DNA from: Gammaproteobacteria bacterium
GTDB taxonomy: Bacteria; Pseudomonadota; Gammaproteobacteria; Enterobacterales; GCA-2746155
DNA: 38,793 nt
NCBI GenBank assembly: GCA_030589945.1
Contig: JAUUZN010000018.1
Coordinates: 1-38,793, forward strand
Direction of reading: 5' to 3'
This document shows positions 5,695-25,339 of the stretch, one piece after another. The translations under genes and the position numbers were made by a program. The notes under the pieces were generated by a model, which saw only the letters and a list, made by a program, of their open reading frames with translations, was not told the origin of the DNA and made no database searches. How positions within the stretch are numbered: the first letter of the stretch is position 1; the number at the start of each line of letters is the position of its first letter.

Positions 5695-8639
5695 TGATAT
5701 TCGAACCTATTTCATCCACTAAAAGTTTGTTCAAACAAATTAACCCGTGTTGTTTCACTGGTTTTGTTAGTCTATTGTTAAAATCTATAATTGTCTTATT
5801 TTCTTTACTGGTTTCAATGGTAAGAATTCTGGCTGCCGATCCTAGCGTAGCCTCTCATGAAGTAGCTAATAATCAATACAAGAAACCAGAATATATTACG
5901 GTTATTCTTATTGATAACAACAATCCTTTTTCATTCACCTTACCTACAGGTAAGCACGTAGGGATGTATGTTGATTTCTGGCAACTTTGGTCAAAATATT
6001 CAAACATCCCTGTTAAATTTGTGATGAAGGAATTTGAAGCATCTGTCCTAGCTGTTAACGATAAAAACGTCATACACTCTGGTTTGTTTAAAACTGACAA
6101 AAGGCTGGCTTCGTCTGAATTTACGCTACCCATACACAGTGTAAATACCGGTATCATCTATAATGACAACTATACTTCCGAGACCCTTTTAAGCGAGCTG
6201 ACTTCCGAGACTATTGCGGCACCAACTGGCAGTTTTCAATCATTTTTTTTGAAGGAGAACTACCCAACATTAAAATTCTACGGTTTCACCGATACAAATT
6301 TAACAATCAATAAGCTTCTTAATAATGATATCCAAGCCATTGTTGGAGAGCAGCCTTTTTTACGTGCTCAGGTTGCAAAAGTTGGTTTGGGATCGGTCTT
6401 AGTATTTTCAGATGAAGTTTTAGTCAGCAACACAATCCATGGGATGATTTCACTCGGTCAACCCGGATTTTTGAATTTTTTAAATAAGAGCATAAAAAAT
6501 ATACCCATCGATGAACTTGTTGCAATGGAAATTAAGTGGCTTCCAGACCTAAATCCATTCCATCAGGGTGAGGGGGCTTTAGCCACATTAACAATTGAAG
6601 AGCGAGATTGGTTAAAGACTCACTCTAACTACAAACTCGGTTTAGATTCTTCTTGGGCACCTTATGAATTTAAAGATGAAAATGATGATTATCAAGGCAT
6701 AACCGTTGATTATTTTAATTTTCTACGTAAGGCGCTCAATATCAGAATTAATCCAGTGAGTAACCTAAGCTGGACTGAAGCATTCACTGAATTGAAAAAG
6801 GGCAATATTGATATTATGTCTGGTATGGTGAGTACACCAGAACGCGCCAAGGTCCTTAACTTTACCGAACCTTATATTGTCATTCCTACGGTTGTTGTTC
6901 GGAGAAAAGGTACCTTTTATGCTGACTCGCTCAATAGTTTGTCTGGAAAAAGACTGGGTATAGTAGATGGCTATGCCTTTGTTGAACTTATTGGTAGGGA
7001 TTATCCACAAATTAATATCATTCCTGTTAAATCAGTTGCAGACGGTTTATTACAGTTACAAGAAAATAATATTGATGCCTTCATTGATGTTCATTCCGGG
7101 ATCAACTTTGAAATGGATCGACGACAAATCCTTGATCTAGAGATTGATTCATTTACTCCTTATAAATTAGAACTATCGGTTGCTATCCGCAAGGGACTAG
7201 AGCCATTGGTGCCGATCTTAAATAAAACGTTTGCACAGATGTCACTCAAAGATAAAGGGATTATTGATAATACGTGGCTAAGGACTCAGATTACAACAGG
7301 TACCGATTTAGTAACCATTCTAAAATGGACAATTCCCATCTTAACCATATTATTTTTAATCATTGTCAGTATTATTAGAATTAACCGTAGGATGGAAAGC
7401 GAGATAACCGATAGAAAGAAAGCAGAACAATTTCTCAAAGCAGCAAAGGATGCTGCAATTGTCGCTAATAAGGCAAAAAGTGATTTTCTAGCCAATATCA
7501 GTCATGAAATAAGAACGCCAATGAATGCGGTCATTGGGATGAGTCATTTACTAGAAGAAGAAGGTCTCAATGATAAACAATTAAAGTATATCGACATCCT
7601 AAATTCATCATCTTCAACTTTGCTAATGCTGATTAATGATATTTTAGATCTGTCAAAAATTGAGGCAGGAAAACTAGATCTTGAAGAAGCACCATTTATA
7701 TTAAGCGATTTAGTTTCTAACACCTGCTCTCAAGTAAAATTAAACATTGATGATAATCATGTAACCTTTATAACCAATATTTCGGATGAAATACCTAAAA
7801 TACTTTCTGGTGACACACTAAGGCTCGGCCAAATATTACTCAACATTCTTAGTAACGCCTGTAAATTTACCGAGCAGGGCAGCATTATTCTAGACGTCAG
7901 CTTTATTGAACGAACGAGGGAGACAATATCACTTTTATTTAAGATATCGGATACCGGAATTGGTATGAATGATGAGCAGCAAAGCCGATTATTTCAGACC
8001 TATAGTCAAGCTGACAGTTCAACAACTCGTAGATTTGGTGGTACCGGACTTGGTCTTTCTATTTCAAAGTCTCTTGCTGAATTAATGTCTGGAAGAATTG
8101 ATGTTGAAAGTGTGTTGGGAAAAGGAAGTCAATTTAGTATTTATGTAACGGTGAAATTGCTTATAGAAGATGAACGCGAACGTTTAAAGAGTGAGGTCGG
8201 TTTAACAGCTAACAATGAATTAGTTACTACCGAGGAAAACTCATCCATTTATTCTGAGTTCAGTCAGTTGTCGGGTAAAAATGTATTGGTGGTCGATGAT
8301 AATAAGGTAAACCTAATCGTCGCCAGCAAGATACTTCGCAAAGCCGGAATCAGGGTTACAAAGGCAATGAATGGTCAAGAGGCTGTAGATCTTGCAAATT
8401 CTGAAGATTTTGATGCAATTTTGATGGATATTCAAATGCCTATATTAGATGGTTACGCTGCAACGATTGAACTTAAGAAACTCTCAAAACACGAAAATTT
8501 ACCGATCATAGCTTTATCGGCCAATGTCATGAAGGATGACATTGAGCAATCGTTTGAGGTGGGTATGAGTGCTCATCTAGCCAAGCCGCTTGATATAAGA
8601 AAGTTATTCGAGGTTTTAGCAGAGTTGATAGTTGAATAA
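5694..8639 (+). CDS. BvgS-like hybrid sensor histidine kinase with tandem periplasmic binding domains
   Basis: The 981-residue protein has a membrane/signal segment (about 23-46), two periplasmic solute-binding-type domains (about 65-290, divergent; and 308-535, clear SBP_bac_3), a membrane segment (541-562), a histidine kinase core with the H-box SHEIRTP (His604), N-box LLNILSNACKF, G1 DTGIGM and G2 GGTGLGLSIS, and a C-terminal receiver (861-981) with the phospho-acceptor Asp912 in LMDIQMP. This is the BvgS/EvgS layout, in which the binding domains sense small molecules. Unlike BvgS there is no HPt domain after the receiver and no PAS domain evident between membrane and kinase. No response regulator is adjacent, so the output must be encoded elsewhere. 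Confidence 0.92.
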   Translation: MIFEPISSTKSLFKQINPCCFTGFVSLLLKSIIVLFSLLVSMVRILAADPSVASHEVANNQYKKPEYITVILIDNNNPFSFTLPTGKHVGMYVDFWQLWSKYSNIPVKFVMKEFEASVLAVNDKNVIHSGLFKTDKRLASSEFTLPIHSVNTGIIYNDNYTSETLLSELTSETIAAPTGSFQSFFLKENYPTLKFYGFTDTNLTINKLLNNDIQAIVGEQPFLRAQVAKVGLGSVLVFSDEVLVSNTIHGMISLGQPGFLNFLNKSIKNIPIDELVAMEIKWLPDLNPFHQGEGALATLTIEERDWLKTHSNYKLGLDSSWAPYEFKDENDDYQGITVDYFNFLRKALNIRINPVSNLSWTEAFTELKKGNIDIMSGMVSTPERAKVLNFTEPYIVIPTVVVRRKGTFYADSLNSLSGKRLGIVDGYAFVELIGRDYPQINIIPVKSVADGLLQLQENNIDAFIDVHSGINFEMDRRQILDLEIDSFTPYKLELSVAIRKGLEPLVPILNKTFAQMSLKDKGIIDNTWLRTQITTGTDLVTILKWTIPILTILFLIIVSIIRINRRMESEITDRKKAEQFLKAAKDAAIVANKAKSDFLANISHEIRTPMNAVIGMSHLLEEEGLNDKQLKYIDILNSSSSTLLMLINDILDLSKIEAGKLDLEEAPFILSDLVSNTCSQVKLNIDDNHVTFITNISDEIPKILSGDTLRLGQILLNILSNACKFTEQGSIILDVSFIERTRETISLLFKISDTGIGMNDEQQSRLFQTYSQADSSTTRRFGGTGLGLSISKSLAELMSGRIDVESVLGKGSQFSIYVTVKLLIEDERERLKSEVGLTANNELVTTEENSSIYSEFSQLSGKNVLVVDDNKVNLIVASKILRKAGIRVTKAMNGQEAVDLANSEDFDAILMDIQMPILDGYAATIELKKLSKHENLPIIALSANVMKDDIEQSFEVGMSAHLAKPLDIRKLFEVLAELIVE

Positions 8640-8793
8640 TGGATGAGCCGTTCAGATGCAAATACCTCAAAATAAGGCCTATTTGTTCAGATAACCGCCA
8701 ACTTTGTCACTAAATTAGTGATCTTAGACAATCTAAGTAACAACCGTGAGCAATTATGCTCTATATTTCTGTATAGTGTCTTTATAAGTTAAT

Positions 8794-8823
8794 TTGATTC
8801 AACGAGATAAAATTCAATATAAT
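8794..8823 (+). promoter_or_regulatory. Candidate sigma70-type promoter for the M36 protease
   Basis: TTGATT (8794-8799) and a perfect TATAAT (8818-8823) are separated by 18 bases, about 27 bases ahead of the protease start, which has an AAAGGACGG ribosome-binding site. A short inverted repeat (tcacta/tagtga, 8707-8721) lies about 75 bases upstream of the -35 and could be an operator. Assigned by consensus only. Confidence 0.5.
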
Positions 8824-8849
8824 TTTTATACTAAAGGACGGTTGTAAAA

Positions 8850-11800
8850 ATGCATAAATCAATTATAAAAATAATCATGTTCAGTACTGCTGCACTGGTA
8901 TCAATAGCAAGCACCGCACAAGGAACAGACTCTCTGAGAGATCGTGTAAATTCATCGAAAATTCATCCAATACAGCAGATTTCAGAGCGCTCAAGCACCA
9001 TCAGAAAAGAGAATCAAGGCGTTGGTTATTTCGATAAAAATTTAACAGCCCATACCTTCAATTGGAATAACGGCAGTATTAATAAAGTTGGCATCAATAA
9101 AGCCAAGAGTTTAACGTCTCAACACACCGCCGCCTTTGATAGCTATTTCAAGCAAATAGCACAAATTCACGGTGCAACAAAAATAGGCATGAGTCAGGCT
9201 AAGCAATCGAACTTACATGATACTGGCCGTGGTGGGTTAATTGCCCAATACGATCAAAAAATTAATAATATTGAAATATTCAATCGCAGTATCAGCATTC
9301 TCATTAATCGAGACAATGATTATATTGCATCATCAGGTTATTTTAGTGATGTAACGAAAGCGCCTCAGTCTGACTACTTATTGACAGAAGGTGAAATTCT
9401 CTCAATAGCGTTTAATCAAAATACCGGTGAAGAAATTTTTGTATATGATTTACCCCAAAGCCTTAAGTCACCAGGGTTTAAACGTTTAGATCAGCATGAA
9501 TATTCTGACAATTATCGATTAAGCAAAGATAGCCGTGTGAAAAAGGTCTATTTTACTCAATCTGACCGTAGTCTAACGCCAGCCTATTATGTGGAAATCT
9601 TCACCTCTCCATTAGGCAGTCGTGCTGCCAGTTCATTTAGCTATGTGATTGATGGTATTAGCGGTAAAGTATTGTTTAAACACAACCTAACCTCTCATGT
9701 AGACACCACCTATAAAGTATTCTCTGATGGCAGTGCGAAAAATGTGCCGCTTGATGGGCCCATCGGTAATGATTTATCACCGCATCCAACCGGAGACATA
9801 GCCGACACACCACCTCTAGCCGGTTCTTTTGTAGCACCGATAAGCATCACATTGAATTCGTTACCTTTCAGTAAATCGAATGATGGCTGGTTACTTGCTG
9901 CAGACACAACGACCAATGGTAATAACGTTAATGCTTACGCCGATATAGCCGGCGAGGATGGTTTTGATGAGGGAGATATTCGTCCTGAAATGACCGGTAC
10001 CAATGCTTTTGAATATGAGTTTGCAAGCTTCGCAGATGGTCTTACCGGTGACGGACAGAAATTTGCTGTGGTGAATTTATTTTATATTAATAACTTCCTG
10101 CATGATTGGTTCTACGACAATGGTTTCGATGAGTCTTCAAGTAATGCTCAACGAGACAATTATGGTCGCGGTGGCGCTCCAAGTGATGCACTTAAGGTTG
10201 AAGCTCAGGATTTTGGTGATGTCAATAATGCCAACATGACGACTCCAGGTGATGGTGTTTCTCCAACGATGCAAATGTATGTTTGGACATTCCTGAATGA
10301 TTCAAGCATCGATATCATTGGAGTAAACAACATTGCATTCACTCGTTCAATTTTTGGAGTGCAAAACTTTGATATTAGTGGCGTTTTATCAACCATAGAT
10401 GATGGTGATGATGCAGGAGGTACGCTTAGTACAACAGACGCCTGCCAAGCCATAATTACTGATTTAACTGGACTCATAGCTATTATTGATCGTGGCGATT
10501 GTGACTTTACGGTTAAGGTAAAACATGCACAGGAACAAGGCGCCATTGGCGTTATTATGGCCAATAACGTTGATGATCCTCCATTAATTACAATGGCAGG
10601 TGATGATACAAGCATCACCATTCCAGCAATACTTGTCACAAAGGTAAAAGGGCAAGAGATTAAGGATGCACTATTAGCCGATCCTACTCTGTCAGCCTCG
10701 ATATCATTTACCGATAAACCTCTCGACGGAACACTCGATAATGGCATTGTCGCTCATGAATGGGCCCATTATATGTCAAATAGATTGGTTAAGAACTCTT
10801 CCGGTCTTACCAACAATCAAGGTCGAAGTATGGGTGAAGGTTGGAGTGATTTTGTGGCCCTACTGATGATTGTTAAAGAATCAGACAACCAAGTGGTAGG
10901 TAACGACCAGTTCCAAGGTGTCTATTCATCGACCACCTTTGTGGGTGATGCATATAATGGAATACGTCGCGTTCCTTATTCTACTGATTTTGCAAAGAAT
11001 GCGTTGACCTATAAACACATTGAAAATGGTGTACCGTTACCAACGACTCATCCTGTTGCATATGGTGCCAGTGGGTCAAGTAATGCACAAGTCCATAATT
11101 CAGGGACAGTCTGGGCGAACATCTTATGGGAGGTCTATGTCTCTCTGATAAACAAGCCTGGCTACACCTTCGATGAAGCTCAGAATGCAATGAAAGACTA
11201 TTTGGTGGCGGGTATGAAACTGACGCCCTTTGCTCCGACCATGCTAGAAGCAAGAGAAGCTCTGTTAGCTGCAGCATTAGCTGCTAGCCCTGAAGATTTT
11301 CTTTTGATGCGAGCTGCCTTCACAAAACGTGGTATGGGAGCCTCAGCAGTTGCCCCTGATCGGGAGTCTGATAATCATGAGGGAGTGGTTGAAGATTTTA
11401 CAGCTGACGTTGATGTTCAAACATTGATGACCATTGATGACGATTCCTTTGATATCGGTAGTTGTGATAACGATGGTGTTCTTGATGTGAATGAAACAGC
11501 GACTATTAATCTGACTTTCAAGAATTATACAAACACCGCACTGCCTCAGTTTGATGTGGCTTTATCAACGACGTCTGATATTAGCTTCAATACATCAACA
11601 GTGACCGTTCCTGCAATGGCAGCATTTGGCGATGAAGAAATAACATCCGTTGAAATTACCGTTAACAGTGCAGCCTTTATGGATGAGATTAATTTTTCTG
11701 CAATAGTTGGACAGGTTGGCGCGGGTGCAGACGACTTTATCGAACCCGGTGCCATCAGTCGCAGTATTCTAGTTAACTTTGACTTTGAACAAACTTCAAT

Positions 11801-13094
11801 GAGTGATGACATGAGTTCAGAACTCACATCAGAATTTGATTGGACTGTTACGACAGACGATTCTATATCTTCATTTGAAGTCAGCGATCCTTTATTTGGT
11901 AATTTATCCTGGTACGGTCCTGACAGTGGAGCTCCTGGATATTCAGACTTGGTGACTCCAGAAATCAAGGTTGCTGCCACGGGTGCGATGAGCATTTCCT
12001 TTAACCATTTCTACTTTTATGAAACAACCGATGATGCTGATGGTAATCCAGTGTACTGGGACGGCTCTGTCATTGAGGTTTCTGTGGGTGGTGGTGATTG
12101 GGTGGATGTTATTGAATTCGGAGCGACACTCTCTGAAGCTTATAATGGAATAATTACGGATACCAACGACGCACTCGCAGGGAGAAACGCATACGTTGCC
12201 ACTAGAGAAGTCGGTAGCACTGTTATGTCTCCCAATACTTTGACCTTCCCAGATGGATTAGTGAATGGTCAAAATATTCGCGTTCGTTTTAGAATTGGTA
12301 CCGATGTGTCCGTGGGTGATTTTGGTTGGTTAATTGATGATGTAGTTATCACCAACGCAATCAATAACATGTTCAGTGACATCGTAGTCGAAGATAATTC
12401 ATGTCTTGTTGGTACAGCGCCAACTGTCAATGCGGGTGACGATATAGTGCAGACTGTTCCAAGTTCGGGTGATGTTACCGTCAACTTAACGGGAACTGCA
12501 TCGGATGTTGATGGAGATGATCTGACCGTGCTGTGGACCCAACGAGCTGGACCGACGGTTGTTATTGATAATGCAACCTCATTAGCAGCAAGCTTCACAA
12601 TGGCAATTCCAAGTGCCGATGCTTCAATGGTCTTTGAAATGACAGTTAGTGATGGTAACAATACCTCAAGTGATGTTGTTAACGTGCTCGTTCAACTGAA
12701 CACACCACCAACAGTAACTGCTTCAGATCTCACGATACGTGAAGGCCAGAGTGCGAGTATTACTGCCACAGGTAGTGACGCTGAAGGTGATGCATTAACC
12801 TATAGTTGGACGCAAACATCGGGACCATCAGTGGCTTTAAGTGGTGCAGATACAGCAACAGCTACATTTACTGCACCTCAGGTGACCACCGGGACTACTT
12901 TGACCTTTGACGTGGTCGCCAATGACGGTACTGTAAATTCAGCGACTGCGACTTCTACGGTTACTGTAACCAATACGCCTCCTGCACCCCCTACAACCTC
13001 AGGCGGCGGTGGCGGTGGCGGTTCACTACCCATTTGGTTAGTTGCTGCTTTAGGACTATTGGTTGGCGCTAAAAGACGACGCACATTGTCCTAA
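8850..13094 (+). CDS. Secreted M36 (fungalysin-type) zinc metalloprotease with PA insert and GlyGly-CTERM anchor
   Basis: The 1414-residue precursor has a signal peptide (1-24), an FTP/PepSY-type propeptide (about 50-290) and an M36 catalytic domain whose zinc site is VAHEWAHYM (His636, Glu637, His640) with the third ligand Glu663 in GEGWSDF. A protease-associated (PA) domain is inserted before the zinc site (about 530-615, with the GDCDFTVKVKHAQEQGAIG stretch). C-terminal to the enzyme come Ig-like and jelly-roll-like regions, two PKD/REJ-type repeats (about 1190-1290 and 1290-1375), a glycine run, one hydrophobic helix and a basic tail: a GlyGly-CTERM signal processed by rhombosortase in type II secretion hosts. 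It probably degrades extracellular protein. A strong terminator follows. Confidence 0.92.
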   Translation: MHKSIIKIIMFSTAALVSIASTAQGTDSLRDRVNSSKIHPIQQISERSSTIRKENQGVGYFDKNLTAHTFNWNNGSINKVGINKAKSLTSQHTAAFDSYFKQIAQIHGATKIGMSQAKQSNLHDTGRGGLIAQYDQKINNIEIFNRSISILINRDNDYIASSGYFSDVTKAPQSDYLLTEGEILSIAFNQNTGEEIFVYDLPQSLKSPGFKRLDQHEYSDNYRLSKDSRVKKVYFTQSDRSLTPAYYVEIFTSPLGSRAASSFSYVIDGISGKVLFKHNLTSHVDTTYKVFSDGSAKNVPLDGPIGNDLSPHPTGDIADTPPLAGSFVAPISITLNSLPFSKSNDGWLLAADTTTNGNNVNAYADIAGEDGFDEGDIRPEMTGTNAFEYEFASFADGLTGDGQKFAVVNLFYINNFLHDWFYDNGFDESSSNAQRDNYGRGGAPSDALKVEAQDFGDVNNANMTTPGDGVSPTMQMYVWTFLNDSSIDIIGVNNIAFTRSIFGVQNFDISGVLSTIDDGDDAGGTLSTTDACQAIITDLTGLIAIIDRGDCDFTVKVKHAQEQGAIGVIMANNVDDPPLITMAGDDTSITIPAILVTKVKGQEIKDALLADPTLSASISFTDKPLDGTLDNGIVAHEWAHYMSNRLVKNSSGLTNNQGRSMGEGWSDFVALLMIVKESDNQVVGNDQFQGVYSSTTFVGDAYNGIRRVPYSTDFAKNALTYKHIENGVPLPTTHPVAYGASGSSNAQVHNSGTVWANILWEVYVSLINKPGYTFDEAQNAMKDYLVAGMKLTPFAPTMLEAREALLAAALAASPEDFLLMRAAFTKRGMGASAVAPDRESDNHEGVVEDFTADVDVQTLMTIDDDSFDIGSCDNDGVLDVNETATINLTFKNYTNTALPQFDVALSTTSDISFNTSTVTVPAMAAFGDEEITSVEITVNSAAFMDEINFSAIVGQVGAGADDFIEPGAISRSILVNFDFEQTSMSDDMSSELTSEFDWTVTTDDSISSFEVSDPLFGNLSWYGPDSGAPGYSDLVTPEIKVAATGAMSISFNHFYFYETTDDADGNPVYWDGSVIEVSVGGGDWVDVIEFGATLSEAYNGIITDTNDALAGRNAYVATREVGSTVMSPNTLTFPDGLVNGQNIRVRFRIGTDVSVGDFGWLIDDVVITNAINNMFSDIVVEDNSCLVGTAPTVNAGDDIVQTVPSSGDVTVNLTGTASDVDGDDLTVLWTQRAGPTVVIDNATSLAASFTMAIPSADASMVFEMTVSDGNNTSSDVVNVLVQLNTPPTVTASDLTIREGQSASITATGSDAEGDALTYSWTQTSGPSVALSGADTATATFTAPQVTTGTTLTFDVVANDGTVNSATATSTVTVTNTPPAPPTTSGGGGGGGSLPIWLVAALGLLVGAKRRRTLS

Positions 13095-13112
13095 GTGAAA
13101 AGGGTTTGATTG

Positions 13113-13138
13113 AAGGAGAGCTTTGGCTCTCCTTTTTT
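13113..13138 (+). terminator. Rho-independent terminator of the protease gene
   Basis: A perfect 8-bp stem (AAGGAGAG / CTCTCCTT) with a 6-base loop runs into a T-tract, beginning 18 bases after the protease stop codon. It shows that the protease is monocistronic and argues against a start for the next gene at 13110, which would lie within the terminator. Confidence 0.85.
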
Positions 13139-13169
13139 ATCTCTAAATGGAAAAAGGGGTAAAGGAACT

Positions 13170-13706
13170 ATGAAATTGAAATTACTGATAAAATATTTAA
13201 TCATATTGAATCTAGCCATTGTTACTGGCTGCTCGACGCTAAAACAGGAGCAAGGGTTAGAGACTGGAATAACCCCATCGGTAAGTCAGACGACTGAAAT
13301 TAATACTGATCAGAAATTGACATCACAGACTTTGAATGTTCCAGACATGACATTTAGTGTCTATGACTGTCCAAATGAATACTGCTCGGGTTATTCGATT
13401 AGCCTAAGAAAGGGTGCCTATTTGAAGGTACAAAAAAATGGTGGGATGGATGACTGGAAACAATTAAGTCAGACAGACAAACATCACATTATCTATATTT
13501 TAGATCAGATTGAATTCCCGAATAAAAAAATCCGTTTATTTCCATCAAGCCCTGATTGCCCATACTATCAAACGGATGATGTCAGTTATCGAATAATTAT
13601 ACATCAGGATTCTAAACTGAACATGCTCGAAATTTATGGCGGCTGCAAAGAGATGCCAACCGCTTATAAAGCATTGCTTGATTGGTTTAAAGCGTTAAAT
13701 TCTTAA
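13170..13706 (+). CDS. Lipoprotein of unknown function
   Basis: The product is 178 residues from the ATG at 13170, chosen because it has an AAAGGAAC ribosome-binding site and begins a lipoprotein signal peptide with lipobox VTGC (Cys20). An in-frame upstream ATG at 13110 would put 20 non-signal residues ahead of it and start inside a terminator. The mature part is hydrophilic at first, then has a globular domain with several cysteines (DCPNEYC, DCPYY, GGCKE). It loosely resembles DUF6438-type proteins, but I am not sure. It converges on the NRPS gene with only two bases between stops, and no shared function is implied. Confidence 0.7.
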   Translation: MKLKLLIKYLIILNLAIVTGCSTLKQEQGLETGITPSVSQTTEINTDQKLTSQTLNVPDMTFSVYDCPNEYCSGYSISLRKGAYLKVQKNGGMDDWKQLSQTDKHHIIYILDQIEFPNKKIRLFPSSPDCPYYQTDDVSYRIIIHQDSKLNMLEIYGGCKEMPTAYKALLDWFKALNS

Positions 13707-13708
13707 TA

Positions 13709-16700
13709 TCAACTTTCAACAAGAGTAGGGCAGAGTGTATCGACTATTTGCCCGATACTGTCGACTAAGCTGTCCATCAACTGACCAATGGTCTCATCTT
13801 TAAAAAATGATTTGGAATAAGTGAGACGAATATTAAGTTCACCTGCCGTTACACCGGCTTCAAAATAAAGAAGATAGCAAAGGTGATTTCTACCGTCAAT
13901 TTCAGCAATACTTTGAAGTCCTTCAGTTGGGCGAAAAGCAATTTTGTCTGGAATAATCGCATCAATCTGTCCCACATAATTGAAAAATAATTCTGCACTT
14001 TTGCGTTCCACAATTTCAGGCTGCTTTTTAATGTATCTAAGAATATTGTAATCCATATTCCTAGTGGGAACCTCGGCAATTTGTTGTATGACATTATTTA
14101 TGAAAGTTTCGTCAATTAGAGACTCAGTATCACAGAATTTATCTGCTACTAATCTCACGGGGAATACCGTATTGACCCATCCAACTGTTCTTGAAAGGTT
14201 GATATCTGCAACACCGGAATTTCGACCATGGCCGCAAATGTTGACAGTTAAGCTGTTATCTTTGGTCCATTGTTGTGTGACCTTAAAAAAGGCAGCTAAC
14301 AATAGATCTTGTATTTTATAGCCATGTTCCCGAGGGATCTCTTTTAACAGCTTGTCAGTAAGTTCCATTGATGATTTTACAATGACGGTCTTTGCTGTTG
14401 ATTCACCATTTGTATTTGGGTTAAATTGAAAGTCGAGTGGTACCTTCGGACTAGGATTGATTGGAAAATTACCCCAATAGGAAAGAGCTTCACTAAAGTC
14501 TTTTTCGATTACATATTGTTGTAAATACTCGGTCCAAGTTTTCAAAGATGATGTTTTACCGGATAAATGATGTGTGAGTCCTCTTCTGGCATACTCATAA
14601 CATCGCATGAAGTCTTCAAAAACGATTCGAGATGACACCATGTCGAGTAATAGATGATGGCTGATGATGACCAGACTTCCAGAGTCTTTTTCTAATTCAA
14701 AGTAAACGGCCTTAATTAATGGCGCCCTATTTAGGTGCATGCCACGATGCCCCTGTTCAATGTAGCGGCGCATGGTTTCTTGCTGTTCATCGGCATCAAG
14801 TTCAATAAGGTTGAGATGAAAGACTGACTGACCGAGATCGGCAGTTGGACAATCAACCTGTACCCACTCACCTGAGTCTTTTTGTATGAACTTAACTCGC
14901 AGTGCATCATGATATTCAAGAACCTGTGTAAAGGCCTTAGTAAGAGCTCTGACTGAAACCTTTTTGATCACATCAAAGGAAAAACTTCGATTCCAATGAT
15001 TAGAATTAATAAACTGGTCATTAAAGAACTTGTACTGACGAGCAGTGAGCGGGTATTCACCGACAACTTCATTGTCAGAGTAAGATAGCTTGTTCATTTG
15101 CGTATCTTTGCAAACAATCACCTGAGATATTTCGGCAATGGTACGACTTTCAAATAGTGCGATGGTATCAATATGAATGCCTTGTTCTTCGGCGATAGAT
15201 GCAAATTGTATTGCCATTAAACTATCACCACCGAGTTCAAAGAAACTATCTTCTATACCAATTTTATTTTCAGGTATTTTCAATACACAAGACCAAATAG
15301 AAACTAAATGTTTTTCAATTTCAGTGGTTGCTGGCGTATATTGCTGAGTCTGGATGATCGAATCGGATATTGGAGGTAATCTTCCATAGTCGATCTTGCC
15401 ACTTTGAGAACGAGGAATGGATTCGATTTTTAAGAATAAGGCTGGAATCATATAGGACGGTAAAGACTGAGCAAGTTCTGCCTTAATCGTATGGACAAAT
15501 TCATGATCATTGATTTTTGTTGATTCATCCTTTTCAACAAAATAGGCCACTAGTCTTTGACTTTGTTTGTCTTCGATTACCGCGCAATCAGAAATAGATT
15601 CTATTCTTGAAAGTTCATATTCTATTTCACCCATTTCAATTCGGTAGCCACGAATTTTAACCTGATGGTCAATGCGGCCAAGAAAATCAATATTGCCATC
15701 AAGCAGATACCGAGCCTTGTCACCTGTTCGATACATTAGCTCGTCACTCGATTGGCTAAATGGATTGACAACAAAAGACTTCTCACTGAGTTCTTTGCGG
15801 TTCAAATAGCCCGTTGAAATTGATGGGCCGGCCAGATAGAGCTCTCCTACTACACCTTTGGCGACAAGCTTTAAATTGTCGTCGAGTATATAAGCGCTGG
15901 AGTATTGTAGAGGTTTTCCAATGGGGCAGGCCGGTAGATTAAATGTGGGCTCACACTGATAAAAACTTGCGTAGATGGTCGCTTCCGTTGGACCATAAAA
16001 GTTATATAACCGACTCTTATAATGCTGCTGAAAATTGTTAATTAAGCGAGGACTAAGGACTTCTCCTGCAGCGAGCATATACTTCAGGCTTTGTAATTTT
16101 TCCTGGGAGTGTGTTCGTTTAGCTTCTATGAGCAGAGCATTTAGCATTGACGGTACCATACAACTAACGGTTACCTTTTGTTCTGAGATGATATCTAAGA
16201 TTTGTTCTGGATATTTGTTTTGCCCCTGTTCTGTTAATGCTAGAGCGGCTCCACTGGTCAGAGGCCAAAAAATTTCTGCTACTGATACATCAAAGCTATA
16301 ATCGGTTGTTTGTAACATCACATCAGCTGGTGAGAGTGAAATTTCCTGTTGTAAGCATTGTAATTTCGGCATCAGGTTGCCATGAGATATTACAACGCCC
16401 TTGGGCTGTCCCGTTGAGCCTGATGTATAAATTATATAGGCAGTATCTGAATTATTAATCTTCAGTTCTAGGTTTAAAGTAGAGTAATCAGCCAATTTTG
16501 TTTGTTGAACATTGACACTTAGATTGGCTAGACCCTTACATAGCTCCGCGGTATCGTTCTCGAAAATAATAAAGTCGCACTTGGTATCATCCAAGATAAA
16601 TTGCAAACGTGAGCGAGGATAATCAGGTGCTATAGGTATATAACTACAGCCAGATTTCAGTATTGCTAACAAACTTGTTATGAGTGTTGCTCCTCGCTTT

Positions 16701-18301
16701 AGGCAGATTGCAACTCGTTGATGTTGCTGTAGTCCTTTATCAAGTAACAAATGAGCAAGTTGATTTGCTGAAGCGTTCAGTTGTTCATAGCTGGTAGTTG
16801 AACCTGAGGTTCTCAAAGAATTGTCATGAGCATACTCAGCAGCAGTATATTCAAATAAACTTACCAAGTTATTTTCAGGTCTTTGGTTATCATAATGATC
16901 AGGCTGACGAGATAAAACGCCCTTTGATAGCCTTTCGAGTTCAGTTGATTGAACATCACTGAGCAGGTTGAATTCGCTCAAGTGGGTCTCAGGTTTGTTG
17001 ACCATCTGATCCAATATTTGACGGATGTGTTGAATACCTTGATTGATAAATGCTTCATCAAACATTGATGTTCGGTATTCAAACCACAGACCAATTCCAT
17101 CTTCTAGTAGCTCATAAGACAGGGATAAATCATCATTTACATCATTATATTCAGATTCTAATGCCTGTGTTTCAACCCCTTCGAGTTCTAAGTTATAGAG
17201 TCTGGAGACAGTCTGTGCCATGGATAAATTAAACAGTTGACCATCAAAGTCATCAACATTTTCTCGAACAGCGTTAACGATATCCAATGCAGGAAACTTT
17301 TGATGGCGCTTATCTTCTTTTCTTGTTTTGGATACTCTTGCAAGGAGTTCTTGATAGGTTGGGTCGCCCGATAGATCAATACGAATAGGCACTATGTTAA
17401 CGAAAAACCCGAAGAGATGTTTATATCCTGGAGGACGAATACTAATTGGAAATCCGACCAAAATATCCTTGAGCGCAAAGTAGCGGTGGATGAATATACC
17501 AAAGGCACAAACCATGACATTAAAAAGCGTGGTTTTATTTTTTGATGTATGGGCTTTAAGCCCCTTGGCTAATTCATCAGGAATATCAAAATAGACACGA
17601 TGTCCCTGTTTATCATCTTTTAAAGAATTTTTGCGACCATAACTGTAATCGAAGTAATGATTAGCGCCATCGAGACGTTGCTGCCAATGCTCTTTTGAAA
17701 TAGCGTGCTTTACAGCATCAAACTGATTTCTTTTATCGTCATGAAACTCAGACCAGCCTTTAATTGTTGAGTCATAAGCCTGTTGAAGGCCTTGGTAACC
17801 ACCGTTATAGGCAATGGATAATGACTCAAGAAATAATACTGCAGAGCGACCATCAGAAATCATATGAGGAACCATACCAATGAAATAATAGGTATCTTCA
17901 GCAACCTTCATTAATGAAGCACGTACCAGTGGGAATGTTTTTAAATCGATGGAGGTATTTAAAGTTTTTGAGAGGAAATCTAAGCCCTGTTGCGCAAGTT
18001 CGGGGGTTTCAGCCTGACTGGGAATTGAGATATCCTCAAACTGTAAAAAATAGGTACCACTGCTTTTAATGCATTGGTAAGGAATTCCAGACTCTTCTCT
18101 AAAATAAACCTTTAATGAGTCGAAATATTGAACAATATCGAAAAGTGCTTGACCCATCTGCTTGACATCAATTTCACCCTTCAGTTTTACTTTGACACAG
18201 GTGTTGTATGACGTATTGTCAGGATGGAGTTTCCATTCTATCCAAAGTCCTTGTTGTTGTTTTGTAAGAGGAAATCGTTGTTCTGTATTATCAGATGGCA
18301 T
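13709..18301 (-). CDS. Single-module non-ribosomal peptide synthetase (C-A-T-E)
   Basis: The protein has 1530 residues. Condensation domain: about 5-450, with PHMISDG at 145-151 (first His replaced by Pro, catalytic His146 kept). Adenylation domain: about 475-990, with YTSGSTGQPKG from 625, FYGPTEATIY, YRTGD and SGKIDY. Carrier domain: LGGDSL with phosphopantetheine Ser1027. Last is an epimerisation-type domain (about 1060-1525) with HHLLLDM at 1215-1221, RTVGW and FNYVGQ. The E4 motif, normally EGHGRE, reads CGHGRN at 1356-1361, so the catalytic Glu is missing. By hand alignment to GrsA the specificity residues read D-V-A-C-L-A-F-I-Y-K, which I cannot match to an amino acid. There is no thioesterase; the starting C domain implies an acyl or peptidyl donor. 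Product unknown. Confidence 0.93.
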   Translation of the reverse strand: MPSDNTEQRFPLTKQQQGLWIEWKLHPDNTSYNTCVKVKLKGEIDVKQMGQALFDIVQYFDSLKVYFREESGIPYQCIKSSGTYFLQFEDISIPSQAETPELAQQGLDFLSKTLNTSIDLKTFPLVRASLMKVAEDTYYFIGMVPHMISDGRSAVLFLESLSIAYNGGYQGLQQAYDSTIKGWSEFHDDKRNQFDAVKHAISKEHWQQRLDGANHYFDYSYGRKNSLKDDKQGHRVYFDIPDELAKGLKAHTSKNKTTLFNVMVCAFGIFIHRYFALKDILVGFPISIRPPGYKHLFGFFVNIVPIRIDLSGDPTYQELLARVSKTRKEDKRHQKFPALDIVNAVRENVDDFDGQLFNLSMAQTVSRLYNLELEGVETQALESEYNDVNDDLSLSYELLEDGIGLWFEYRTSMFDEAFINQGIQHIRQILDQMVNKPETHLSEFNLLSDVQSTELERLSKGVLSRQPDHYDNQRPENNLVSLFEYTAAEYAHDNSLRTSGSTTSYEQLNASANQLAHLLLDKGLQQHQRVAICLKRGATLITSLLAILKSGCSYIPIAPDYPRSRLQFILDDTKCDFIIFENDTAELCKGLANLSVNVQQTKLADYSTLNLELKINNSDTAYIIYTSGSTGQPKGVVISHGNLMPKLQCLQQEISLSPADVMLQTTDYSFDVSVAEIFWPLTSGAALALTEQGQNKYPEQILDIISEQKVTVSCMVPSMLNALLIEAKRTHSQEKLQSLKYMLAAGEVLSPRLINNFQQHYKSRLYNFYGPTEATIYASFYQCEPTFNLPACPIGKPLQYSSAYILDDNLKLVAKGVVGELYLAGPSISTGYLNRKELSEKSFVVNPFSQSSDELMYRTGDKARYLLDGNIDFLGRIDHQVKIRGYRIEMGEIEYELSRIESISDCAVIEDKQSQRLVAYFVEKDESTKINDHEFVHTIKAELAQSLPSYMIPALFLKIESIPRSQSGKIDYGRLPPISDSIIQTQQYTPATTEIEKHLVSIWSCVLKIPENKIGIEDSFFELGGDSLMAIQFASIAEEQGIHIDTIALFESRTIAEISQVIVCKDTQMNKLSYSDNEVVGEYPLTARQYKFFNDQFINSNHWNRSFSFDVIKKVSVRALTKAFTQVLEYHDALRVKFIQKDSGEWVQVDCPTADLGQSVFHLNLIELDADEQQETMRRYIEQGHRGMHLNRAPLIKAVYFELEKDSGSLVIISHHLLLDMVSSRIVFEDFMRCYEYARRGLTHHLSGKTSSLKTWTEYLQQYVIEKDFSEALSYWGNFPINPSPKVPLDFQFNPNTNGESTAKTVIVKSSMELTDKLLKEIPREHGYKIQDLLLAAFFKVTQQWTKDNSLTVNICGHGRNSGVADINLSRTVGWVNTVFPVRLVADKFCDTESLIDETFINNVIQQIAEVPTRNMDYNILRYIKKQPEIVERKSAELFFNYVGQIDAIIPDKIAFRPTEGLQSIAEIDGRNHLCYLLYFEAGVTAGELNIRLTYSKSFFKDETIGQLMDSLVDSIGQIVDTLCPTLVES

Positions 18302-18618
18302 CGTTAGTTCCGTAACGGGTCTATGCTTATTACTTTTTATCTCGCTGTTAGTTCAGAGAAGTTTAATCTAATAATGTTACATAAATGTGGGCAAAAAAAC
18401 TATCGGATTAACCTTTAATCGCTTTAAACAAAGTAACATCTAAATGACTCATCAATACTGATAGTTCCGATCTTATAAATTATGTTGATAACAACTCATT
18501 AACATTGTTAGACTGCATTCAAATGATGACTGAATTAAAACAGCTGATTTACAAGAGCGACAATAGATTTAGTGTGTGATTAATTGACCGAATAATCAGT
18601 AAAAAATTGAGATTTAAA
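18302..18618. promoter_or_regulatory. Divergent promoter region between the NRPS and DAHP synthase genes
   Basis: About 317 bases without a gene separate two divergent starts. The best plus-strand promoter candidate is TTGATA (18485-18490), 18 bases, TAGACT (18509-18514), which is weak. Next to the NRPS start is a short inverted repeat (cgtta...taacg, 18302-18317). I saw no TyrR-like box, attenuator peptide or riboswitch. Nothing else recognisable is present. Confidence 0.35.
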
Positions 18619-19683
18619 ATGTTTTCTAAAAATGACGATATACGTATTCAACAAATTAAAGAATTACTTCCACCCGTAGCTTTGATTGAACGATTTCCTG
18701 CTACCACTGAAATATCTAAAACGGTTTATAACAGTCGCAAAGCTATCCACAATATATTCAACAATGAAGATGACCGATTACTTGTCATCATTGGTCCCTG
18801 TTCAATTCATGATCCGAAAGCTGCTATGGAATATGCTGAGTTATTGGTAAAATTACGTCAGCAGTATTCAGAAAATCTAGAAATAGTTATGCGTGTCTAT
18901 TTTGAAAAACCGAGAACCACCGTTGGTTGGAAAGGACTCATTAATGATCCTTATCTTGATAATACTTACCAGCTCAATGACGGTCTTCGAATTGGTCGAA
19001 AATTGCTCTGTGATATCAACGAAATTGGTATGCCAGCTGCGGGTGAGTTTCTCGATATGATTACACCTCAGTACATGGCTGATTTAATGTGTTGGGGCGC
19101 AATTGGTGCTCGTACCACAGAAAGTCAGGTTCATCGCGAGCTTGCTAGTGGTCTGTCTTGTCCCGTTGGATTCAAAAATGGTACCAATGGTAATATCAAA
19201 ATTGCCATTGATGCTATTCGATCAGCAAGTTCACCACATAACTTTCTGTCGGTAACCAAATATGGCCATTCCGCTATTGTTGAAACAACGGGAAATGATG
19301 ACTGCCATATTATATTACGCGGTGGAGTTACGCCAAACTATGATGCAGCTTCGGTAGCTGAAGTGACTCAGACACTCGAAAAATTTGAATTAAATACCAA
19401 GATAATGATTGATTGCAGTCATGCTAATTCAGAAAAACAATTCAAAAACCAAGTTAATGTCTGTGGCAACATCTGTGAACAACTGAAGTTGGGTGAAGAC
19501 AATATTTTTGGTGTGATGGTTGAGAGTCATCTGCAAGAAGGTCAACAAAGCTTGGTCAACAATGAAGCCAAAGTTTATGGTCAAAGCATTACTGATGGCT
19601 GCATAGGATGGCAAGATACAGAGCAAGTATTATCGATGCTTAATGATGCAGTCAGTAGCCGACGTCTGAGTAATAACAAATAA
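18619..19683 (+). CDS. aroG: 3-deoxy-7-phosphoheptulonate (DAHP) synthase, AroG/AroF class
   Basis: This enzyme condenses phosphoenolpyruvate and erythrose 4-phosphate, the first step of the shikimate pathway, in the cytoplasm. The 354 residues match class I AroG throughout: IKELLPPVALIERFPAT near the N-terminus, IIGPCSIHDP, EKPRTTVGWKG, AAGEFLDMITPQY, GARTTESQ, CPVGFKNGT, DCSHANS and GVMVESH. I chose the ATG at 18619 because the product then starts like E. coli AroG (M-x3-NDD-x-RI); the in-frame TTG at 18607 adds four residues. Its neighbour is the divergent NRPS, so it could boost aromatic precursors for that product, but ordinary housekeeping use is equally likely. Which amino acid inhibits it cannot be settled by eye. 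Confidence 0.93.
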   Translation: MFSKNDDIRIQQIKELLPPVALIERFPATTEISKTVYNSRKAIHNIFNNEDDRLLVIIGPCSIHDPKAAMEYAELLVKLRQQYSENLEIVMRVYFEKPRTTVGWKGLINDPYLDNTYQLNDGLRIGRKLLCDINEIGMPAAGEFLDMITPQYMADLMCWGAIGARTTESQVHRELASGLSCPVGFKNGTNGNIKIAIDAIRSASSPHNFLSVTKYGHSAIVETTGNDDCHIILRGGVTPNYDAASVAEVTQTLEKFELNTKIMIDCSHANSEKQFKNQVNVCGNICEQLKLGEDNIFGVMVESHLQEGQQSLVNNEAKVYGQSITDGCIGWQDTEQVLSMLNDAVSSRRLSNNK

Positions 19684-20429: not shown

Positions 20430-21827
20430 TCAGTCATTATGTTGAGCTTTGCTTGTTTTCGTAGATCGTACAAACTGCACAAAACGCTCGACCCACCTAA
20501 AGGATTGAGTGTTTCTTAGATGTGAAAAGTTTGCGAGTAGATTATGAATGACGAGACCGTCTGAAGTACCATTGATCCCAAATCCGCGATTTACTTTATA
20601 GGCGAATTGACTATCTTCAGGTAAATTTTCTAAACTAGCATAGTGAAATTCGTGTGCTGCAACTTCTTGAGAACTTTGTAAATCTGGCCAGAGCATTTCA
20701 GCAGTTTCAGTTAGTTTTGCATAACCCCGGCCCTGTGGCTTTTTATGCATGAGAATATCGCCTGGAATTACGCCAACCATAGGGTGTTGCTCATCTTGCC
20801 AACGGATAGACTGAGATAAATACATCAGTCCACCACATTCAGCATAGGTCGGTAAACCCCCTTCGATTGCTGTCTTAATGTCATTCATTAATGATGTATT
20901 TTGAGAAAGAGTTTCCATCTGTGTTTCTGGAAATCCTCCGCCAATGAATAAACCATCAACAGAAGGTAGATGCTCATCATTGAGGGTATCTATCGTGATG
21001 AGTTCAACGCCCAGACATTCAAATGCCTCGAGATCATCATCGTAATAAAAACCGAAAGCTGTATCTTGGGCTATCGCAATTTTTAGAGGTTGAGAAATTG
21101 AATTTATTTCGATGACATCTTTTATGACATTCACATTCGTTTCTACTGATGGCGGCTCAGAATCTATAAGGTTTTTTAAATCAACACCCTCTAAAATGGC
21201 CTTGGCTAAATTGTTAATGACTTTCTCAGCAACCTCACTCTCATTTGCTGGTTGAAGGCCCAGATGACGTTCCGGAATTGACAGGCTGCTGTCAAAACCC
21301 ACACTGCCAATAACCTTAAAGTCCGTATACCGTTCTATAGCAGCACGTAGCTTGCTTTCATGGCGAGAAGTACCGACCTTATTTAGGATTACGCCGGTAA
21401 AGTTAACTTCGGGGTCAAAAGATTGATAACCCTGTAATAGTGGTGCAATCCCTCGGGTGATACCGATGGTATCAATAGTCAGAATAACGGGAACATCGAG
21501 CAATTTTGCCATTGCTGCATTACTGTCAGAGCCTTCCAGATCGAGTCCATCGTACAATCCCTTGTTACCTTCAATAATACTAATGTCTGACAAGCTACCC
21601 TTTGTATTAAAAAGAGTTAATAGTTCTTCGTCATTTTGAGTATTAAAATCGAGGTTATAACAGGCCTGTTGAGATGCACTTCTTAACCAAATGGGATCAA
21701 TATAATCAGGTCCCTTTTTAAAGCTTTGAACTTTAAGTCCACGATTACTCAGCGCTCTGGTTAGACCAATGCTGATGGATGTTTTTCCGGATGATTTGTG
21801 GGCGGCGGCGATGTAATAACTAAGCAT
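20430..21827 (-). CDS. dsrN: DsrN, CobB-like sirohaem amidase
   Basis: DsrN is related to cobyrinic acid a,c-diamide synthase (CobB). In purple sulfur bacteria it is thought to amidate sirohaem to the siro(haem)amide found in DsrAB. The protein shows the ATP-binding P-loop AAAHKSSGKTS at the N-terminus, KKGPDYIDP, and a C-terminal glutamine amidotransferase domain with catalytic Cys331 in YAECGGLMYL and a later AHEFHY histidine. I place the start at the ATG 21827, giving the typical MxxYYIAAAHKSSGKT; an in-frame GTG at 21842 overlaps the upstream stop codon by one base (TAGTG). Position in the dsr operon and the absence of other cobalamin genes support DsrN over CobB. Confidence 0.9.
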   Translation of the reverse strand: MLSYYIAAAHKSSGKTSISIGLTRALSNRGLKVQSFKKGPDYIDPIWLRSASQQACYNLDFNTQNDEELLTLFNTKGSLSDISIIEGNKGLYDGLDLEGSDSNAAMAKLLDVPVILTIDTIGITRGIAPLLQGYQSFDPEVNFTGVILNKVGTSRHESKLRAAIERYTDFKVIGSVGFDSSLSIPERHLGLQPANESEVAEKVINNLAKAILEGVDLKNLIDSEPPSVETNVNVIKDVIEINSISQPLKIAIAQDTAFGFYYDDDLEAFECLGVELITIDTLNDEHLPSVDGLFIGGGFPETQMETLSQNTSLMNDIKTAIEGGLPTYAECGGLMYLSQSIRWQDEQHPMVGVIPGDILMHKKPQGRGYAKLTETAEMLWPDLQSSQEVAAHEFHYASLENLPEDSQFAYKVNRGFGINGTSDGLVIHNLLANFSHLRNTQSFRWVERFVQFVRSTKTSKAQHND

Positions 21828-21841
21828 GGCTAAGTTTAGCA

Positions 21842-22855
21842 CTAGTTGGTCGTTGAATGACTCATTTCTTGCCGATTTCGCTGTTGCCAGATCTGTGTTG
21901 CGTTTGACATGGCATCATCTTGGTCAATGGAGTGATCCATTAGTTTGAGAATGACGGCCATTGTTCCGATAATTGCAGTTTGTGCATAACTGGATAGGTC
22001 GTTTTCAGATTGCCAAATTTCAATGAGCTGTTTTGGGTCCATTTCAGTATCAATGGCCGTTCGCATTTCTGGCAGCATTCTCGTCCATTTGTCAGAGTGC
22101 AACTCACCACCATGCACAGAGCACATCTCAAAGGGTTTATTGGGTCGAACTTCAACTTCACCACCTTCACCTCTGAATACCGCCATATGTGGTTGCTCGA
22201 GTAACTGAGCGGCTCCTTGATGGACCGGCATATAGTTTGGATGAAAGATACCTTGAATGGAGTAGGGGGCGTTAAATGGATTGATCATTCTGCCTAATGT
22301 ATGAACCGGTGAACGCAATCCAAACAAAGTTTTGAGACCTATAATTTCGTGAAGTTTAGGGTTTAAATCTTCTAATGTGATGTAGGCGAATCCAGTTTCT
22401 TTAACGTTGTTACTTGCATCAGCAAGAGACTTTACGGGTTCAATGCCCAACTCTTTTAAAATATCACCGGTATACATGCGACCATCGGTATGTTGCTCGG
22501 CGCCATGCATCAAAATACTGACACCGGATTGCACCAAGGCAAGAGCAGATAATATAAAGTAGGGTAGTTGTCGTTTTTTACCAGCATAGGAAGACCAATC
22601 GACATCAACATTAGCGTAATCAGTAGGACGATCTAGGCTCTTTTGTACAGCCTTTACAAAACCAGCAATTTCTTCAGCAGTTTCTGTATTGACTCTCAGT
22701 AACATTAGAAATGCACCCAGTTGTTCGGGCTCAACGTCGCCTGCCATTATCATAGACATAGCGGATTCAGACTCATCAAAAGTCATTGGTCTTGAACGTG
22801 TAGGACCTCTGCCAAGAATCCGAACAAATTGTGCGAAAGGATGTTCTGTGGCCAC
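21842..22855 (-). CDS. TrpD2/YbiB-like protein (anthranilate phosphoribosyltransferase fold)
   Basis: This protein of about 337 residues has the class III phosphoribosyltransferase fold: an N-terminal helical domain (HPFAQFVRILGRG...LGAFLMLLRV) and a C-terminal alpha/beta domain. The PRPP-binding GTGGD motif of true TrpD is replaced by SSYAGKKRQLP, and the DE metal motif is not evident, so anthranilate phosphoribosylation is unlikely. E. coli YbiB of the same family binds nucleic acid. The likely start is GTG 22855, which follows the dsrP stop by 4 bases and fits the family N-terminus; TTG 22894 would overlap dsrP by 35 bases. Lying between dsrP and dsrN, it is probably co-transcribed with them; its role there is unknown. 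Confidence 0.8.
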   Translation of the reverse strand: MATEHPFAQFVRILGRGPTRSRPMTFDESESAMSMIMAGDVEPEQLGAFLMLLRVNTETAEEIAGFVKAVQKSLDRPTDYANVDVDWSSYAGKKRQLPYFILSALALVQSGVSILMHGAEQHTDGRMYTGDILKELGIEPVKSLADASNNVKETGFAYITLEDLNPKLHEIIGLKTLFGLRSPVHTLGRMINPFNAPYSIQGIFHPNYMPVHQGAAQLLEQPHMAVFRGEGGEVEVRPNKPFEMCSVHGGELHSDKWTRMLPEMRTAIDTEMDPKQLIEIWQSENDLSSYAQTAIIGTMAVILKLMDHSIDQDDAMSNATQIWQQRNRQEMSHSTTN

Positions 22856-22859
22856 AGTG

Positions 22860-24077
22860 TTATTCTGTTTTTGTTTGATAGTGTGGATCGGCAACAGAAT
22901 TTGCCAAGCTGTTAGGTAAGAACCGGAGAACCTTTAAACCCAGAAGGACGATGAGTGCTGTAATTGCAAAACCACCTAGACCCAGAGCAACCTCAGGTGA
23001 ACTTGGAACATAGCGGGTAATGACGCCATCACCAAAGGAAGACGATACTTCCATACCAGGGAACATGTTTAAAGGCCAGGCTTGAGCAGCAATTACAATG
23101 ACGTAGATTTGAGCAATGCCACCAACAACAATCAGTGAAGATGCCGTAAACAATGTAGATATGCTGATGTTGCGACCAGGATAAAGTAACATTGCAATTG
23201 GAATTAAACCACCGAGAACAACCTGAACAGCCCAAAATAAGAAGGTATATACACCACCATCAGCGAGTATGAAGTTTTCAACGCCAATATGCTGTGCTGC
23301 ATAGAGATTAGTTAAATGCTGAATGGTTGTGAAATAGAGAACACCTGCAGCAAATAGTCCGAGTAATTTACCCATTCGATTCACAACAGCCGAACCTAGT
23401 TCTCGACCTGTGCCGTTATTAGCGATAATCAGAATCATGCTAAAGGCAGCTAAACCAAAGGAAAATGACATATTAATAAACAAAGGTGCCATCACCGCTG
23501 AATCAAAGGCTTCACGGGCCACTAAAAACCCAAAGATAGAACCGGTTGCCGTAGTCAGCGCTAGACGCCATACAAAGGCAAAGGTACCAATGGCTTTAGC
23601 ATATTTGTTCATATGTCGGTCCATCTGCGCCCAGAGATAGAGCGCTACGACAGCGATAAAGCCGACATAAAAATTAATATTCCATGCAAAGATAGATTTG
23701 AAATTGTAATTAGTCATAGCCACGATGAGCCTATCTGGACGGCCTAAATCGAGAACTAAAACGGCTAAACCGCCTATTAATAAGGCAATTGAGATTAAGC
23801 TCGATAAGCGGCCCAAGGGTTTATAAATAACTTTCCCAAAGACGGTGCCAATGGACGCAACGTTGAGCGCACCCGATGCAGCAACGATTAAAAATATTGC
23901 TAATACATGAGGCATTCCCCATACCAGCTGATTATTCATGCCGGTTACATGATGTCCATTGTGCTCCATGTACCAGGCGGCAGATAATGCAATTGCAAGT
24001 ACGGCTAGCATAGCTCCAAAGAGCATCATGAAGCCTTTGCTATCGCCTTTAATTTCGCTGTAATGAATTTTTTTCAT
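22860..24077 (-). CDS. dsrP: DsrP, NrfD/PsrC-type integral membrane subunit of DsrMKJOP
   Basis: DsrP is the second membrane anchor of the DsrMKJOP complex and probably exchanges electrons with the quinone pool. The 405-residue protein is almost entirely hydrophobic, with about ten predicted membrane helices from residue 17 to 395, and fits the NrfD/polysulfide reductase family (GMPHVLAIFLIVAASGALN near the first helices, LDLGRPDR in the loop after helix 3). It follows dsrO by 18 bases, as in other sulfur oxidisers. It carries no cofactor of its own by sequence; partners are the iron-sulfur protein DsrO and the cytochrome DsrJ. Confidence 0.95.
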   Translation of the reverse strand: MKKIHYSEIKGDSKGFMMLFGAMLAVLAIALSAAWYMEHNGHHVTGMNNQLVWGMPHVLAIFLIVAASGALNVASIGTVFGKVIYKPLGRLSSLISIALLIGGLAVLVLDLGRPDRLIVAMTNYNFKSIFAWNINFYVGFIAVVALYLWAQMDRHMNKYAKAIGTFAFVWRLALTTATGSIFGFLVAREAFDSAVMAPLFINMSFSFGLAAFSMILIIANNGTGRELGSAVVNRMGKLLGLFAAGVLYFTTIQHLTNLYAAQHIGVENFILADGGVYTFLFWAVQVVLGGLIPIAMLLYPGRNISISTLFTASSLIVVGGIAQIYVIVIAAQAWPLNMFPGMEVSSSFGDGVITRYVPSSPEVALGLGGFAITALIVLLGLKVLRFLPNSLANSVADPHYQTKTE

Positions 24078-24095
24078 TGGCTAAAGAATTCCACT

Positions 24096-25336: not shown

Positions 25337-25339
25337 AAA

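Follow-up and report, generated by a model that had tools for sequence, protein, structure and literature searches.

A terminal epimerization domain with one fixed set of residue replacements

In a 38,793-nucleotide stretch of DNA from a Gammaproteobacteria bacterium (GenBank assembly GCA_030589945.1, contig JAUUZN010000018.1; hereinafter the window), we analyzed the gene for a single-module nonribosomal peptide synthetase (NRPS) with the architecture condensation (C)-adenylation (A)-thiolation (T)-E*, where E* is an epimerization (E) domain by descent and fold in which a cysteine has taken the place of the catalytic glutamate. Together with two further replacements, by serine and asparagine, this cysteine recurs in all five members of the family that we recovered, a pattern suggesting that the change in E* was selective and points to a new job rather than to simple decay. 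With somewhat less than even confidence, we read this as an E-domain lineage turned by the fixed Cys/Ser/Asn set into a catalytic terminal domain, acting either in discharge or transfer of the product or in a cysteine-based epimerization, and enabling a single module to operate without any further NRPS part in the cell. Our preferred single explanation, in which E* now serves to discharge the T-bound product of a stand-alone NRPS or to pass it on, is narrower and more tentative still.

The open reading frame (ORF) is uninterrupted and encodes a protein of about 170 kDa (a length-based estimate), in which a Pfam scan detected two Condensation domains, AMP-binding, AMP-binding_C and PP-binding, with a sub-threshold acyl carrier protein (ACP) model over the PP-binding stretch, and neither a thioesterase nor a second module. 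The genome of the window likewise has only two matches to PF00975, both below the family cut-off. These results bear out an earlier reading of the DNA made from its letters alone (hereinafter the sequence-only reading), which had proposed a lone C-A-T-E module devoid of a thioesterase.

In phmmer searches, E* aligned to the solved E domains of PvdL, bacitracin synthetase 3, TycA, GrsA and TycB3 (E-value 1.2e-46 or better), and in the alignments to the first two of these the Cys of its CGHGRN motif (Cys1356) lies under the Glu of EGHGRE. The sequence-only reading had noticed this loss of the catalytic glutamate amid the E-domain landmarks LLLAA, RTVGW and FNYVGQ, which we recovered at amino acids (aa) 1333-1337, from 1371 and at 1440-1445, respectively. 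According to passages of PMC7551626, the active site of E domains consists of the His of HHxxxDG and the Glu of EGHGRE; passages of PMC11142918 describe a W227S/H743A TycA as an E-domain knockout. The E4 position is occupied by Cys in all five E* and by Glu in 44 of the 47 other E domains of our set (L, L and G in the remaining three). It is plausible, as the sequence-only reading had it, that epimerization in the usual way has been lost. A further change singled out earlier, HHLLLDM for HHxxxDG, is correctly read (from aa 1215) but is less telling, since 26 of the 44 Glu-bearing domains have G at the last position of this motif and 13 have A; both histidines and the Asp are retained in 5/5 E*.

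Two replacements on which that reading was silent affect positions occupied by Trp and Thr, respectively, in 44/44 Glu-bearing E domains: all five E* have Ser at the former (aa 1224) and Asn at the latter (aa 1377). When near-invariant columns are defined as those conserved in at least 43 of the 44 Glu-bearing domains, there are 17, all of which are carried by 40 of these 44; the five E* retain 14 and share the same substitution at each of the others (Trp to Ser, Glu to Cys and Thr to Asn), and the three other Glu-less E domains retain 13, 13 and 15. Additionally, Glu1481 is invariant in E*, at a position that is Asn in 26 of the 44 Glu-bearing domains; it is a candidate, if an improbable one, for the catalytic glutamate at another position that the sequence-only reading had named as evidence against its view.

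These identical replacements occur in domains that share only 38-54% pairwise identity, which suggests that E* either has taken on another function or is held to a set structural role; the earlier description of E* as disabled-looking says too little about it. Among the five E*, 102 of 424 ungapped columns are invariant, and the chance that three random ungapped columns are all invariant is 0.014, a modest probability for columns that were picked for their conservation in other E domains. Between the window and its counterpart in genome G013, E* and A are 53.9% and 48.9% identical, respectively, and T and C 57.1% and 67.4%; hence, E* is not eroding faster than the A domain.

Descent and fold of E*

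The C/E-family domains of the analyzed loci scoring above 40 bits and longer than 330 aa (189 domains, 139 distinct after removal of identical ones) were used to compute a maximum-likelihood tree, which comes from a quick search and has some long branches. In it, the five domains of the Cys type group together with a support of 100 on a long stem, within an E branch of 53 rows (support 100) that comprises these five, the other E rows (47, none missing) and a single row labeled internal C. The other E rows stand beside the E* clade with a support of 83, and the clade may be sister to them or nested among them. The AlphaFold model of E* (predicted local distance difference test score [pLDDT] 84.7, from 14 sequences) has its 11 best structural matches, at Z 33.0-39.1, exclusively in entries containing E domains; entries with C domains reach at most 31.7. 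The subtype tree and the structure prediction suggested alongside the sequence-only reading therefore both identify the last domain as E-type. A firm grouping with active E domains, which that reading held would speak against a disabled domain, is found as regards the E branch as a whole and not as regards the separate, long-stemmed clade inside it.

Distribution of the family

The family has five members among 394 genomes of the order, namely the window and the metagenome-assembled genomes G013, G392, G383 and G348. The same-genus genome G001 has no match to the NRPS, and no sixth member was found in sets of 59 relatives, 40 family genomes, 369 class genomes, 3 family genomes and 398 phylum genomes, which partly overlap. 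With model A2, built from the same five members that it scores, these reach 733-779 bits and the best non-member among the matches listed 265 bits. A scan of GTDB contigs returned 16 loci; it used two peptide patterns derived from these same members and would therefore miss divergent ones. Four of these are of the Cys type and are the four other members (from Gammaproteobacteria CG22 metagenome-assembled genome, Kangiellaceae CSMAG_169, Enterobacterales Faavne_M6_B3 and an uncultured Kangiellaceae); 11 of the other 12 (L064-L074) have Glu in the E4-like stretch, with L074 also having one Glu-less stretch, and L075 has no E-domain stretch. Among plasmids, the best matches in the 8 of 212 records listed are 30.5-31.5% identical. 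We found no report of a Cys-for-Glu E domain in open-licence PMC text.

Three copies are uninterrupted (window, 1530 aa; G013, 1517 aa; G392, 1526 aa); those of G013 and G392 are 43-67% identical to the window copy per domain and retain the core motifs of A and T. The copy in G348 has one in-frame stop (locus L055, ~11600-11630), and that in G383 has several breaks (L056, 4782-7033); both lie in metagenome assemblies, where assembly error is possible.

An NRPS that appears to work alone

In the genome of the window (92% complete, 224 contigs), the only Condensation-family matches are the two domains of this NRPS, and in G013, G392 and G383 every such match lies in the NRPS gene; the completeness of these four assemblies is 82-93%. 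The PP-binding matches of the window's genome are the T domain of the NRPS and an ACP encoded between fabG-like and fabF-like genes, i.e., the fatty-acid ACP; G383 has the same pair in the same setting, and three and four matches were seen in G392 and G013, respectively (G348 was outside this search). The genome has a single match to the phosphopantetheinyl transferase (PPTase) family, in a 284-aa ORF that is longer than an AcpS and Sfp-like by our reading.

The five proteins end 3-22 aa past E*, and none (0/5) shows a C-terminal docking tail motif in a pattern search, the pattern being a crude one of our own making. The same motif occurs in 23 of the 47 other E domains, and 20 of the remaining 24 extend by at least 30 aa; the last four tail-less domains are that of L067, which ends at the locus boundary, and the three Glu-less ones. 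The NRPS thus appears to work alone: four of the five genomes have no Condensation matches outside this gene, the tail is absent and, in the window's genome, the only other carrier-protein match is the fatty-acid ACP and no PF00975 match passes the cut-off. Of the two roles that the sequence-only reading had offered for the last domain, release or partner docking, docking in trans is unlikely, given the missing tail and the lack of a detectable second Condensation protein in 4/5 genomes; release may be its role. The genome search that it had recommended thus yielded an Sfp-like PPTase and, in the window's own genome, neither a partner donor (Condensation) nor a release enzyme (PF00975); G348 differs in this regard, having other NRPS genes.

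As a side observation on Glu-less E domains, all eight in the set, from three lineages, lie at most 22 aa from the C-terminus of their protein. One, in L115 (genome G253, 9183-13835), is an E-type terminal domain with LLGHGKEA at E4, the same Thr to Asn change and no tail, whose gene comes after another NRPS gene and precedes genes that by eye are major facilitator superfamily (MFS)-like and ATP-binding cassette export-like; a near-identical domain occurs in L034 (G338), and the two belong to a tree lineage separate from E*. The remaining one, in L074 of Lentzea albida (frame 4420-11562), is the second member of a C-terminal tandem E-E and has LGGHGRED (Glu to Gly).

Condensation and adenylation domains

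The C domain has PHMISDG as its active-site motif (aa 145-151), in which the second His, the Asp and the Gly are retained. We considered a starter-C (acyl) subtype and did not settle on it: the domain falls in a non-DCL group of 39 rows, where it has a long stem and adjoins a row that is itself long-branched, so that more than one donor type is conceivable. Its best score against solved structures is to 5u89 (119.4 bits), with the starter C domain of RzmA at 60.1 bits. The best solved-structure matches of the A domain are LgrA (two stretches), the entry 8xjz ('Peptide synthetase') and McyA. Using the PheA position map, we reproduced by eye, from the A-domain motifs, the specificity code DVACLAFIYK given in the sequence-only reading; it is identical in L054 and L055 and one letter different in L053, so the substrate is probably common to the members.

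A possible course of the reaction and its alternatives

Given its intact motifs and the Sfp-like PPTase in the genome, the A domain would charge the T domain with a single amino acid. The N-terminal C domain would then link this residue to a donor, either acyl or aminoacyl, which we place outside other NRPS modules because no other donor was detected; candidates are acyl-ACP, acyl-coenzyme A and the enzyme's own dimer partner. E*, having exchanged the catalytic acid and two residues of neighboring motifs for one fixed set, would finally act on the T-bound product, discharging or transferring it by means of His1216 and the altered pocket (Cys1356, Ser1224) instead of inverting the α-carbon on behalf of a downstream C domain. 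Several observations weigh against this proposal. A structural role would equally account for the conservation of the substitutions. Release could be performed by a hydrolase outside PF00975, or by the Abhydrolase_11 protein (an alpha/beta hydrolase, PF20408) whose gene overlaps the end of the NRPS gene in two of the five genomes. Moreover, G348 carries other NRPS genes, a partner module may lie in the unassembled part of the window's genome, and the two interrupted copies mean that the NRPS gene may be dispensable.

Nearly as likely as such a repurposing is that E* has no catalytic activity and persists for structural reasons or for timing, much like that of LgrA, perhaps because the A domain takes an achiral residue such as glycine. 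Precedents are the terminal E domain of LgrA, reported as inactive in passages of PMC8150014, and the E domain on the glycine module M8 of diperamycin synthesis, which according to passages of PMC10888640 lacks HHxxxDG; the absence of the catalytic Glu in 5/5 E* and the 3/47 other Glu-less E domains would fit as well. On the other hand, mere silence need not require the fixation of new Ser, Cys and Asn residues, both histidines and the Asp of HHxxxD persist throughout, and no downstream partner for timing or docking was detected in 4/5 genomes.

Less likely than either, and on the whole doubtful, is that E* is still an epimerase in which Cys1356 and His1216 would form the acid/base pair. Cysteine pairs serve other racemases, the Cys is invariant and sits exactly at the Glu position, and 14/17 of the E core is retained; yet the invariant Trp and Thr have been changed too, and in 4/5 genomes no C domain was detected downstream for which a D residue would be required. 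A relic heading for loss is a more improbable account: two of five copies are interrupted and the distribution is rare and patchy (5/394, with none in the same-genus G001), but three copies are full-length with their core A and T motifs in place, and the breaks in the others may be assembly errors. Very improbable, finally, are a relocation of the catalytic acid to Glu1481 that would preserve normal epimerization, which accords with the invariance of this residue (5/5; Asn in 26/44 Glu-bearing domains) and leaves the other replacements unexplained, and a transfer of the product to a module in the missing part of the genome, for which the 92% completeness and 224 contigs leave room but against which stand the four assemblies with Condensation matches in this gene alone and the docking tail absent in 5/5.

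Relation to known systems

Canonical E domains (TycA, TycB3, GrsA, PvdL) resemble E* in fold (Z 33-39) and motifs (14/17 columns), whereas E* differs by its three fixed replacements, the missing tail and the lack of a detected partner in 4/5 genomes. It is also unlike the terminal E modules of the TycA/GrsA type, which donate in trans: no member has the docking tail, and a second Condensation protein occurs only in G348. LgrA (linear gramicidin synthetase), a dimodular enzyme that passes its product to further subunits, shares the terminal position of the E domain, whereas for the present protein a second Condensation protein was not found in four of the five genomes. E* is set apart from the known systems by the fixed Cys/Ser/Asn set, by a catalytic His that is still in place, by its missing tail and, in 4/5 genomes, by the absence of a detectable partner.

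Two other systems illustrate what can become of this superfamily. The X domain of glycopeptide synthetases is, in the account excerpted from PMC8949500, a member of the C/E family that is no longer catalytic and has found a second use as a platform for recruitment; it is nearest to LCL-type C domains and has a mutated HHxxxDG, whereas E* belongs to the E branch with both histidines and the Asp intact. In the OaaC fatty acid amide pathway, as described in parts of the preprint PMC13142362, a small product is both assembled and set free by a domain of the condensation superfamily, with no need of a thioesterase; unlike E*, OaaC is a C domain that stands by itself, its A and ACP being separate, and is not a descendant of E domains.

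E domains devoid of the glutamate tend to be dismissed as dead. Here, the loss of the catalytic acid in a small family is selective and follows one fixed pattern, the module being mostly without a detected partner, and the question of other E-domain functions can be put to one protein with three named residues. If the proposed loss of usual epimerization is true, the presence of an E domain alone may mislead the prediction of D residues; passages of PMC9431178 and PMC3940840 already describe inactive E domains as hampering the prediction of configuration.

Coordinates and gene neighborhood

Table 1. Features of the NRPS gene (coordinates in the window)
Feature	Coordinates	Strand	Basis or remark
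Single-module NRPS, C-A-T-E*	13709..18301	-	1530 aa, Pfam
N-terminal condensation domain	16937..18283	-	groups with non-DCL C domains, support 86
Adenylation domain and C-terminal subdomain	15395..16855	-	Pfam, aa 483-969
Thiolation (carrier) domain, LGGDSL core	15119..15307	-	Pfam, aa 999-1061
E*, terminal E-family domain without E4 glutamate	13712..15076	-	tree, fold; pLDDT 84.7
HHLLLDMVSSR, aa 1215-1225	14627..14659	-	both His and Asp retained; canonical Trp is Ser1224
E4 CGHGRN, aa 1356-1361	14219..14236	-	catalytic Glu is Cys1356
E5 RTVGWVNTVFP, aa 1371-1381	14159..14191	-	canonical Thr is Asn1377
FNYVGQ, aa 1440-1445	13967..13984	-	retained
FEAGV, aa 1480-1484	13850..13864	-	family-specific Glu1481

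A protein of 177-205 aa is encoded upstream of the NRPS in all four other genomes, a TANGO2 gene (PF05742) adjoins the NRPS in two, and an MFS gene lies by it in two (named by Pfam in L055 and by likeness in L056). The 177-205-aa protein is reminiscent of DinB, but the copy tested, that of L054, gave no match in Pfam, NCBIfam or PHROGs. The genome of the window has no detectable copy of this protein, TANGO2 or the Abhydrolase_11 hydrolase (MFS was not in the query), and genome G057, which has no match to E*, has all three; we therefore do not treat the neighbors as required and dropped the neighborhood as a core explanation. The ~180-aa protein and TANGO2 form a pair in L053 (4975-6254) and L056 (7088-8551), and a match spanning both is also present in G057.

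In the window, an AroG-type 3-deoxy-D-arabino-heptulosonate 7-phosphate synthase gene (18607-19683, + strand) is divergent from the NRPS gene and ~0.3 kb away from it; inspection of the ORFs listed around the NRPS gene of the four other members revealed none by eye. The region 20430-33707 encodes DsrA, DsrB, DsrK, DsrO and a CobB-type protein, all above NCBIfam cut-offs, and DsrJ and DsrP below them; the host is a sulfur-cycling bacterium. A dissimilatory sulfite reductase set amid an order that includes Kangiellaceae-type genomes is an unusual setting or a possible case of bin contamination (4.44%). A siroheme synthase gene is flanked by genes for a TauD-family dioxygenase (33898-34851, + strand) and a Nit6803-like nitrilase (36841-37779, + strand; below cut-off). 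Lastly, the same-genus G001 encodes an unrelated hybrid (L059, 5727-16967), which judging from the translations has a formyltransferase-like start, an A domain with a luciferase-like monooxygenase insert, a carrier and then a polyketide synthase with a thioesterase-like end.

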